Position numbers and translations under genes: made by a program | DNA from: Candidatus Komeilibacteria bacterium RIFCSPHIGHO2_01_FULL_52_14 | Lineage (GTDB): Bacteria; Patescibacteriota; Patescibacteriia; UBA1558; 2-01-FULL-52-15 | Reading direction: 5' to 3' | DNA length: 40,569 bases | Assembly (NCBI GenBank): GCA_001818365.1 | Contig: MHKK01000022.1 | Span: 5,636-46,204, forward strand | Notes under the pieces: model-generated | Seen by the model: only the letters and a program-made list of their open reading frames with translations | What the model was told of the DNA's origin: nothing | Databases searched by the model: none | Shown: positions 29,942-34,590 of the stretch, piece after piece | Position numbering within the stretch: the stretch's first letter is position 1 | Layout of the letters: every line of letters begins with the position of its first letter

Positions 29942-30014
29942 CACGGTTCGTCTGTAGCGACGAGCAAATTCATGTTATACTTAGCGGGTATTTTTATAAT
30001 GGTAACAAATTCTT

Positions 30015-32909
30015 ATGGATCAACAACCCATGCCAGTGCCCGGTCGTGAGCCGGTACCGATTATGCCGACGCCGGCGCAACAGCCGGTGCAGTCGTCAAA
30101 GATTACGGCCATGCCCGAACAAACATGGACGGGGGAGCAGGGGAGAGGGGGCATAGGCAAGAAACTTCTTATCATCGGTGCGGTGATTATCCTCGCAGGA
30201 GCCGGGTATGCGGCTGCAGCGTATTTTACGAAACTCTGGCCGTTTCAAACTTCCGGATTCATCGACAAACAGCTTGTATTTGCAGGGCTCTTTGGAAAAA
30301 TACAGGAGATCAATTCCGCAACGTACGCTTCGACGCTCAGCGTGAAGGCCGATGCACGGGAAGCGGGAGCAACACCTTTGACGCTATCCAGCTTTCCGGA
30401 ATTTCAGGCCGAGGAGCAGATGTACGAGCGTGATGCAAACAGATTTCGCGATGTCAACCGCATCCAGGGGGAATTACGTACCTACCGCGACCGCTATAGT
30501 TCGTATCCGGCCCGGTTGGCGGATATCGCCGCACTCGGCATGCTGAGCGTCGCCGAGTATACGTATGTGCCTGATACGCCACGGCAGCAGTATGCGCTCA
30601 CGGTAACGTTTGAAACCGACGAGGCGCTCAAAGCAGCGCAACTTACCGGAAATAAGAACGCAACAAGCACGACGGGAAAAACGGTCACGTTTACCGCCGG
30701 CAGCGGCACTTATTTTTATTTTTCGGCAAAACCGCCGCGCCCGAACTGGGTGAGTTTTTTCGAACAGGGAGAAGCGACCAATTACTTCGACTTTCTTCCT
30801 GCCGATTTTGCCGTTCAGGTGAACGTCGGGGGAACGTCCCAGCGCAATGCCGATGCCAAAGCCGATGCGAGCTTCACCCTGGGAGGGGGTGTTGCTTTCG
30901 GAGATTTTACTGCCGCTGCCAACGTTGAGGTCCGCAAGAAAGGAGATGTGTGGTATGGGATCATTACCAAATTCCCGTCCCTCTTTTTTATGGATCTGGC
31001 CAGTATCAAGAATACATGGGTGCAGATAACGCGTGAGGATCTGCTGTCGTATGGGCAACTGCCGGAGATCGCTTCGTTCGTGGGCGACAAACAGGAGAAG
31101 AACAGGAACGCGCTTGAGCAGATCCAGACCATATTCAAGAGCATGGGTGATGAGAAGGTTTTGGTTCCTGATTTTTCATTACCCGACGAAGTGGTCGCCG
31201 AAGTTCCGATGTATGCATATGCGGTGTCCTACGATGAGAATAGGGTCGTGGGGTGGTATGAGAAACTCTCGGGAGAGCTGAAGAATAAGTACGGAGACGA
31301 TGCGCTCATCAAGCTCGACGAGACATCGTTGAAATACATGAAGACCGCGTCGTTCCAGCAGTTCCTGTCGTACATTAAGAATAATACGGTTTTTAAGATC
31401 CTCGTCGATAAAAAAACGGGATATCCGTCGCAATTCTCGTACCGGTTCCGTCTTGTACCGGCCGCAAACGTCGCCAAATTCAAGGATAAGCAAGTTACCG
31501 TGGAGGTAGTGACAAACCTCACGGATGTGAATCAGCCGGTCGTTGTCGAAGCGCCGAAGGATTTTATGACGTTCGAGGAGGCGCAGGTTGCACTGACCGG
31601 CGTAACACCGGAGCTCTATCGCTTCAATACGCAAGTCAGCCGCATCGCCGCGATCCGGCAGGCGCTTTCTTACTATTACAATTATACGGGTATCTATCCT
31701 GCGACGCTTGATGATCTGACGAAAAAGAGGGGCGAGGTAACCAAGAAAACAACATTCATGCGGTCTCTTTGGAACGGATACATCGCATTCGGTGATTCCG
31801 TTCAGAAACTCTTCGGACTGAGGAAAGCCCAAGCACAGGTATCCCTTGATTTCCCGAACAGCTTCGATAATTATTGGGATTTGCACCCGGAGATCCCGTT
31901 CATTGTCTCGGTACCAAAGGATATCTATTCCGGAAACCCATATGAGTATGCGCAGTCCGGCACGGGCGATTATACGCTTCGCTACACGATGCATCTTCCA
32001 AAACGCATCACGAATGATGACCCTGAATCCGCGCGAGCGAGGAGTGGGCCTGACATGGACAACGTATTGCTTTATGTTGAGGGTCAAAATACGGCGAATG
32101 CAAAAACACTTTCGGTTGAAGGTTCCGCGTCGCTCAAAGTTGATACGGATAGTGACGGTTTGCCCGATACGGCAGAGGCGTACTATGGTTCGGATGCGCG
32201 TGCCGCGGATACCGATCATGACGGTTATTCCGATCTCGAGGAGGCAAAGAACGGGTATGACCCGGCAGGACCCGGACAGCTGCCCTATAACGACAGGTGG
32301 TCTTCGCAGCTTCAGCCGCCGACGGTTCAGCAGCCGAATGCGAGCACATACACGCCGCCGATTCCCACTGAGAGCAATGCTTTGAAGATTCGCGCAGTAA
32401 CTACGAGCGATCACATCCGGGGCACCCAGTCGGCACAGGTTACGCTTATCCAATACAGCGATTTTCAGTGCCCTTTCTGTACCCGTTTCAAGACGACGCT
32501 CGATCAGGTTTTGAAGGACTATGCAGGCAAAGTCCGGCTTGTATATCGGCATTTTCCTTTACGCTCAATTCATCCGCTGGCGCAAAAGGCAGCCGAGGCA
32601 TCCGAATGCGCGGCAGACCAAGGAAAATTTTGGGATATGCACGACGAGCTTTTTGCCCTTAATGATGGCGGTAGTTTGACTCTCGATGCCATCAAAAAAA
32701 CAGCAGGCGATCTTAAGCTCGATACCACGAAGTTCAATGCCTGCCTTGACGGAGGGACGAAAGCGGCAATCGTCGAAGTGGATTATCAGGACGGACTTGC
32801 AGGGGGCGTAAACGGAACACCGGCGACATTCATTAACGGTCAGTATGTTGCCGGCGCGTTGCCATACGAGCAGATAAAGATGGTTATCGATCAACAACTG
32901 GAGCTATGA
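30015..32909 (+). CDS. Membrane-anchored multidomain protein: Pro/Gln-rich cytoplasmic tail, TM, pilin-like segments, TSP3-like Ca-binding repeat, C-terminal DsbA-like thioredoxin fold
   Basis: TM KKLLIIGAVIILAGAGYAAAAYF; DTDSDGLPDTAEAYYGSDARAADTDHDGYSDLEEAKNGYDP; DFQCPFCTRFKTTLDQVLKDYAGKVRLVYRHFPL; GTPATFINGQYVAG. Confidence 0.88.
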   Translation: MDQQPMPVPGREPVPIMPTPAQQPVQSSKITAMPEQTWTGEQGRGGIGKKLLIIGAVIILAGAGYAAAAYFTKLWPFQTSGFIDKQLVFAGLFGKIQEINSATYASTLSVKADAREAGATPLTLSSFPEFQAEEQMYERDANRFRDVNRIQGELRTYRDRYSSYPARLADIAALGMLSVAEYTYVPDTPRQQYALTVTFETDEALKAAQLTGNKNATSTTGKTVTFTAGSGTYFYFSAKPPRPNWVSFFEQGEATNYFDFLPADFAVQVNVGGTSQRNADAKADASFTLGGGVAFGDFTAAANVEVRKKGDVWYGIITKFPSLFFMDLASIKNTWVQITREDLLSYGQLPEIASFVGDKQEKNRNALEQIQTIFKSMGDEKVLVPDFSLPDEVVAEVPMYAYAVSYDENRVVGWYEKLSGELKNKYGDDALIKLDETSLKYMKTASFQQFLSYIKNNTVFKILVDKKTGYPSQFSYRFRLVPAANVAKFKDKQVTVEVVTNLTDVNQPVVVEAPKDFMTFEEAQVALTGVTPELYRFNTQVSRIAAIRQALSYYYNYTGIYPATLDDLTKKRGEVTKKTTFMRSLWNGYIAFGDSVQKLFGLRKAQAQVSLDFPNSFDNYWDLHPEIPFIVSVPKDIYSGNPYEYAQSGTGDYTLRYTMHLPKRITNDDPESARARSGPDMDNVLLYVEGQNTANAKTLSVEGSASLKVDTDSDGLPDTAEAYYGSDARAADTDHDGYSDLEEAKNGYDPAGPGQLPYNDRWSSQLQPPTVQQPNASTYTPPIPTESNALKIRAVTTSDHIRGTQSAQVTLIQYSDFQCPFCTRFKTTLDQVLKDYAGKVRLVYRHFPLRSIHPLAQKAAEASECAADQGKFWDMHDELFALNDGGSLTLDAIKKTAGDLKLDTTKFNACLDGGTKAAIVEVDYQDGLAGGVNGTPATFINGQYVAGALPYEQIKMVIDQQLEL

Positions 32910-34041: not shown

Positions 34042-34590
34042 TTAGTCGGCAATACCTGGAGGGCAATCAGCCGGAAGCCCCGGTTCGTCCGGTGGTAAAT
34101 TGTACGGGTTACTCGGGCACGGAAGCGGCTCAGGATAAAACATATGGCAGTGCTGTGTCCCAACTGCACGCGCGAAAGGTTCAGGCGGACATACTATTGG
34201 TGCACCCTCGCTGTAAATACCGAAATACGCAATCTGCCCGCATGCTCCTCCGGTCGTTTTTTTGAATGTTCTGAATTCGTAGGTGGTCGCCCAGCTCGCG
34301 TTTATAGGATCCTTAGGATTCGTTTTTAAGTATCCTCTGTCCACTAGAAACTGCATAAAGGTACCCGGTGTCTGGAACGAAGCCTGCAGCGACGTGCACG
34401 GAAAGCTTCCATCAGTAGTATGAATATCAATAAGAGCAGATAGAATGTTGCGTGCTGCGGCGGTGCGTTGTATGTCCCGAGCTTTCACCCGCGCGGCTCT
34501 AAGATTGACCAGTATAATTGTTGAGAGAAAACCAATAATAGCAATAATGACAAGCAACTCAACTAACGTAAAACCACCTGCTCGTTTCAT
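34042..34590 (-). CDS. Type IV pilin / PulG-like pseudopilin
   Basis: MKRAGGFTLVELLVIIAIIGFLSTIILVNL class III prepilin signal; Pro-rich C-terminus. Confidence 0.9.
   Translation of the reverse strand: MKRAGGFTLVELLVIIAIIGFLSTIILVNLRAARVKARDIQRTAAARNILSALIDIHTTDGSFPCTSLQASFQTPGTFMQFLVDRGYLKTNPKDPINASWATTYEFRTFKKTTGGACGQIAYFGIYSEGAPIVCPPEPFARAVGTQHCHMFYPEPLPCPSNPYNLPPDEPGLPADCPPGIAD

Follow-up and report, generated by a model that had tools for sequence, protein, structure and literature searches.

A single gene in the 40,569-nucleotide stretch of DNA analysed here (the window) almost certainly encodes one 964-residue protein that joins a membrane anchor, an LprG/LppX-like domain, two pilin-head-like segments, TSP3-type repeats and a DsbA domain. 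As judged from sequence, the protein is a member of a patchily distributed family of Patescibacteria scaffold proteins with a variable C-terminal part, and the comparison of its DsbA domain with free-standing and fused relatives argues that DsbA was joined to this scaffold more than once, independently, a pattern which gene conversion between paralogues could mimic. On balance we favour reading the protein as an extracytoplasmic thiol oxidase module, tethered to the membrane and carried by an LprG-like/pilin-head scaffold. Each of the modules is already known; their combination and its repeated assembly are new to the literature searched (most subscription journals lay outside it), in which we found neither an LprG-like domain, a pilin head and DsbA together, nor repeated assembly of such a protein, nor any pairing of LprG or LolA with a pilin in Patescibacteria. 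Those Patescibacteria that have been cultivated live on other microbes, to which they attach through a surface that is poorly understood; the protein described here defines a new modular envelope protein family in this group.

Architecture of the fusion protein

Features of the fusion gene, with window positions and residues of the encoded protein.
Feature	Positions	Strand	Basis
Whole gene, multidomain membrane-anchored protein, 964 aa	30015..32909	+	ORF; near-full-length homologue in genome G027
Single N-terminal TM helix, residues ~51-71, LLIIGAVIILAGAGYAAAAYF	30165..30227	+	Sequence
LprG-like domain, first helix and strand, residues 79-118	30249..30368	+	Alignment; model residues 2-446 (protein residues 79-523) align to LprG
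Pilin-head-like segment 1, residues ~132-210, within the LprG-like domain	30408..30644	+	hhalign to pilins; missing in L116-L119
LprG/LppX-like (LolA superfamily) domain, main part, residues 256-523	30780..31583	+	Predicted fold
Pilin-head-like segment 2, residues ~534-699, insert before Y.Y / Y.L strands	31614..32111	+	hhalign; T2SSG in L100 and L105; short pilin ORFs
TSP3-type calcium-binding repeats, two, residues 710-750	32142..32264	+	TSP3_bac 20.4 bits, below cut-off; relatives above
DsbA/Thioredoxin_4 domain, residues 798-959	32406..32891	+	Pfam; PDB DsbA matches; tree
CPFC active site, residues 819-822	32469..32480	+	Sequence
TPATF cis-proline motif, residues 935-939	32817..32831	+	Sequence

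An earlier note on this DNA had proposed a membrane-anchored chain joining pilin-like, TSP3 and DsbA modules, and had named an assembly join as one circumstance that would undo it. The source genome is indeed a draft (860 kb in 62 contigs, 80% complete), which speaks for a join or chimera; nevertheless, we regard this explanation as highly improbable, as the gene is one continuous frame of 964 codons with neither internal stops nor ambiguous bases (N), and its GC3 is even along its length and similar to that of the adjacent genes. Furthermore, an independent genome of the same taxonomic order, G027, encodes a 1056-aa homologue (L113:8128-11295) whose domains, DsbA included, follow one another in the same order, by which an assembly join is excluded and the survey for the same architecture elsewhere gave a positive answer. 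The two proteins are homologous over most of the length of the window protein and run in parallel from the N-terminus over core, pilin head and TSP3 to DsbA; ahead of TSP3 the G027 protein carries another pilin-like stretch, and at the position of segment 1 a head is not obvious. The membrane helix of the window protein is preceded by a tail rich in Pro and Gln, and a lipobox and a GFTLxE pilin signal are both lacking. Cysteines occur in the whole chain only at positions 819, 822, 865 and 910, all of them inside the DsbA domain, thus the remainder of the fusion protein is not its own substrate. By eye, two TATAAT-like boxes lie immediately 5' of the gene start (29970-30014), although they are absent from the list of a consensus scan; given these boxes, a short leader is possible.

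The long beta-rich region that the earlier note placed between the two pilin segments is real, and we identify it as part of a predicted LprG/LppX-like domain which begins ahead of segment 1 and accounts for more of the chain than any other part. The AF2 model of the core (block pLDDT mostly 80-90) aligned in the PDB to LprG with Z 11.1 over 188 of 205 residues, a match that spans residues 79-523 with pilin head 1 between. The model of a relative without the insertion (L118) was cleaner, with a Foldseek E of 9e-7 at probability 1.00 and, against LprG, Z 12.1 over 183 of 205 residues at 15% identity. The six top PDB entries were all LprG, LprF or LppX, followed by LolA, RseB and MucB; on these models the core is a LolA-superfamily, LprG/LppX-like fold. 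In contrast to the mycobacterial LprG, LppX and LprF lipoproteins, with which this predicted fold is shared, the window protein has a membrane helix instead of a lipobox, carries an inserted pilin head and added C-terminal modules, and has no match to their Pfam family (PF07161 is not among its matches at E<=1). A lipobox is found in the more distant relatives L107 and L111 (LSGC/IVGC), and these two and L130 have weak similarity, below the cut-off, to the NCBIfam lipoprotein family lipo_SCO4651.

The two pilin-like segments of the earlier note were borne out as homologues at the level of profiles. Against 14 GFTLxE pilins from which the signal helix had been removed, profiles built from relatives gave an hhalign probability of 98.6% (E 6.8e-16) for segment 1 and 97.9% (E 5.1e-13) for segment 2. 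In L116-L119 segment 1 is missing and the flanking helix and strand and the core are continuous, which marks the segment as an insertion. A profile of core plus segment 2 matches short ORFs (130-210 aa) in other genomes, the majority of them with the GFTLxE signal, and the Pfam cut-off of T2SSG is passed by segment 2 of L100 and L105 and by a third head, located after TSP3, in L097. The window protein itself matches no Pfam pilin family, T2SSG included, at E<=1; N_methyl is likewise absent from its matches, and its membrane helix KKLLIIGAVIILAGAGYAAAAYF is without the GFTLxE-type (class III) motif. The structural dissection yielded the LprG-like core fold but no confident pilin fold: AF2 run on six sequences modelled the pilin segments at low confidence and fold searches returned no pilin structure, so that the pilin homology rests on profiles. 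When the core plus segment 2 profile was compared with PDB sequences, the best hits were to the pseudopilin EpsG at E 0.16, alongside unrelated MMS21 chains, a match that is not significant by itself. The head regions of type IV pilins and GspG-type pseudopilins are thus profile homologues of the segments, whereas the class III signal and the N-terminal helix of such pilins are lacking in the window protein. Taken with its relatives and with the missing pilin signal, its sequence firmly indicates that it carries pilin heads as modules and is not itself a pilin; since the heads are internal, it could not be assembled as one.

As the earlier note had claimed, the DsbA-like domain is complete, with both motifs in place and nearly full-length matches to Pfam Thioredoxin_4 (PF13462, 1.4e-27, positions 4-164 of 165) and DSBA (PF01323, 4.7e-17, positions 1-188 of 191); DsbA structures in the PDB match as well. 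The nearest named NCBIfam DsbA family, NF041057, scores 113 bits against a cut-off of 190 and describes the Rcas_1661 thioredoxin-like (seleno)lipoprotein, a single-domain lipoprotein without a scaffold, in contrast to the DsbA of the window, which is part of a scaffold chain. No dimerisation domain of the DsbC/DsbG type was detected in the fusion protein. The proposed TSP3-like repeats stand as two copies of the motif, while the TSP3_bac score of 20.4 bits stays under the Pfam cut-off of 25, which relatives exceed. Tandem DxDxDGxxDxxE repeats are shared with bacterial TSP3-repeat surface proteins; in the window protein, however, there are only two copies, which form a spacer ahead of DsbA.

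The scaffold family and the origin of its DsbA domains

Searching with the core profile, we found matches in 33 of 380 genomes of the class at E<=1e-3, about 19 of them strong, in 5 to 13 of the 36 genomes of the order, depending on strictness, and in further genomes elsewhere in the phylum. A search with a six-row alignment gave five related loci, whose sources include 'Candidatus Kerfeldbacteria' and 'Patescibacteria group bacterium'; the viral contigs searched gave no relatives. DsbA is present in 4 of the 17 family members with a readable C-terminus, following TSP3 in the window protein and G027 and preceding it in G109 (CPYC) and G055 (CxxC lost). The other C-termini carry Calx-beta, a LamG-like domain that scores below cut-off, a third pilin head, a tail that by eye is fibronectin-like or Cys-rich, or nothing at all. 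In the DsbA of L096:2-2656, possibly non-catalytic, the CxxC is lost and the second Cys pair kept. As most members are without DsbA and one DsbA is dead, oxidation is not the core function of the family and the scaffold must have a function of its own.

Reading and comparing the ORF lists, we saw no evident gene neighbourhood shared by the window, G027 and G109. In two genomes the family gene has another LprG-core-like gene close by (G020 C5:1702-2280 and G028 C48:1914-2489), with none near the gene of the window, and a TSP3-bearing membrane protein is encoded directly upstream of the family gene in G027 (L113:6469-8088), a neighbour that the window lacks. Furthermore, other Patescibacteria DsbA domains (L187:1492-3135, L170:982-2007, L174:958-2007 and L159:1495-2481) are fused to different N-terminal parts, among them a long coiled helical protein and a small domain that is HMA-like by eye; fusion of DsbA thus looks recurrent in Patescibacteria.

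Relatives of the window DsbA domain occur at E<=1e-10 in 350 of the 380 class genomes. Its identity to the best free-standing class DsbAs of about 250 aa is 53-59%, and to the fused DsbAs of G027, G109 and G055 it is 39%, 40% and 33%, respectively. In the tree it pairs (support 99/97) with a 68% identical 115-aa fragment from its own genome, and the fused DsbA of G027 groups with free DsbAs of G027 (support 100/92 and 100/100). The fragment (L056, C47:1-968) is truncated by the end of its contig, which starts inside DsbA and continues with a second DsbA gene (CPAC); it is the closest relative of the fused domain and, being cut, could be a piece of another fused gene. A clade uniting the fused DsbAs of the window and G027 was rejected by the AU test (p 0.0007 with long branches removed, 0.001 with the C47 fragment), for which the groups were picked after the first tree had been viewed. 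In the tree of the core, the DsbA-bearing members are scattered, requiring at least four changes, and a single clade is rejected (AU p 3e-5). The scaffold is probably old and modular, and a copy of a free-standing DsbA gene may have been the source of the window DsbA in its own lineage, independently of the fusion in G027. Separate acquisitions of one enzyme by one scaffold argue for selection of the combination, and they make the idea that the scaffold brings DsbA to its clients directly testable.

Readings of function, redox partners and candidate clients

We infer the function of the protein, its substrates and clients, the outward topology, the direction of oxidation, the lipid pocket and the docking of pilin heads to pili or other partners. 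In the favoured reading, this Patescibacteria envelope protein would be anchored by its one N-terminal membrane helix with the rest outside. The LprG/LppX-like domain, a fold with a hydrophobic pocket, would lie beside the membrane with a pilin head inserted, and be followed by the second head, a TSP3 spacer stiffened by calcium, a flexible linker and DsbA at the tip. DsbA would oxidise Cys pairs of exported proteins, the likeliest clients being pilins and Cys-rich surface proteins, and would be recharged by the DsbB of the genome. A partner search found this DsbB (C27:18293-18685, 5.7e-17), a protein of 143 aa with both Cys pairs (CTLC and CTKNGVSC); no VKOR was found in the 80%-complete genome. 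The earlier suggestion of an oxidoreductase dedicated to the surface, perhaps for pilus or Cys-rich surface proteins, is plausible: the intact motifs, DsbB and the Cys-bearing pilins agree with it, but oxidation is not the core role of the family, and at the fusion gene we found no genetic linkage to DsbB or to a pilus operon, its neighbours encoding a UDP-sugar dehydrogenase and a Xer recombinase.

Several other readings draw on the same evidence. It is possible, although doubtful, that the true function resides in the LprG-like domain, in the handling of lipids, lipoglycans or lipoproteins at the envelope, with pilin heads, TSP3 and DsbA providing only stability or positioning. The core is common to all family members, and the LprG-like lipobox and the SCO4651-family similarity of the distant relatives point the same way, yet a common fold is no proof of lipid binding, and the signal sensors RseB and MucB share it too. 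The variety of C-terminal modules on one scaffold (fibronectin-like, Calx-beta, LamG-like, extra pilin head, DsbA), together with the retention of a DsbA without its CxxC in L096, would also fit a scaffold displaying exchangeable binding domains, with DsbA mostly a binding or chaperone module and catalysis incidental. This display role, the main rival to the oxidase reading, we consider unlikely, because the proteins of the window, G027 and G109 keep an intact CxxC and the closeness of the window DsbA to free enzymes suggests that it is still constrained as an enzyme. Since the genome also encodes proteins of the DsbD family (three matches to DsbD_TM), the redox direction could run either way, and the module could instead act as a reductase or isomerase that DsbD/CcdA-family proteins hold in the reduced state, for example repairing wrong disulfides of surface proteins; with a DsbB present, DsbA/MdbA-like nearest free relatives and no dimerisation domain, we give this still less credence. 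A tentative extension of the favoured oxidase reading is that the scaffold, specific to Patescibacteria, is a docking platform whose pilin heads or LprG pocket hold a client and which has recruited DsbA repeatedly and independently; as a clamp-and-oxidise station it would bring the oxidase to the site at which pilins or lipid-linked clients appear.

A CPR-enriched MdbA-like oxidoreductase (fam000318) has been proposed for pilin folding (Meheust et al. 2019, PMC6744442). The free-standing DsbAs of about 250 aa may be its counterparts; DsbA/Thioredoxin_4 domain, CPFC or CPYC, T-cisPro and membrane anchor recur in the window protein, where, however, DsbA forms the tip of a 964-aa LprG-like/pilin-head/TSP3 chain instead of sitting on a short stalk. 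The genome has 15 matches to the pilin signal, and most of the proteins read have even Cys counts (2-10, one 36); PilM is encoded within the window. The protein with 36 body Cys (L209, contig C55) contains CGNG..CDDGN..C repeats; it suggests itself as a candidate client of a surface oxidase. The minus strand of the window encodes, two genes downstream of the fusion gene, a GspG-like, pilin-like protein (34042-34590, -) that has an N-methyl signal and 6 body Cys. Moreover, at C22:3161-3226 (L203) and C49:7144-7218 (L206) a pilin signal heads frames of about 1000 codons, that is, giant proteins anchored by a pilin signal.
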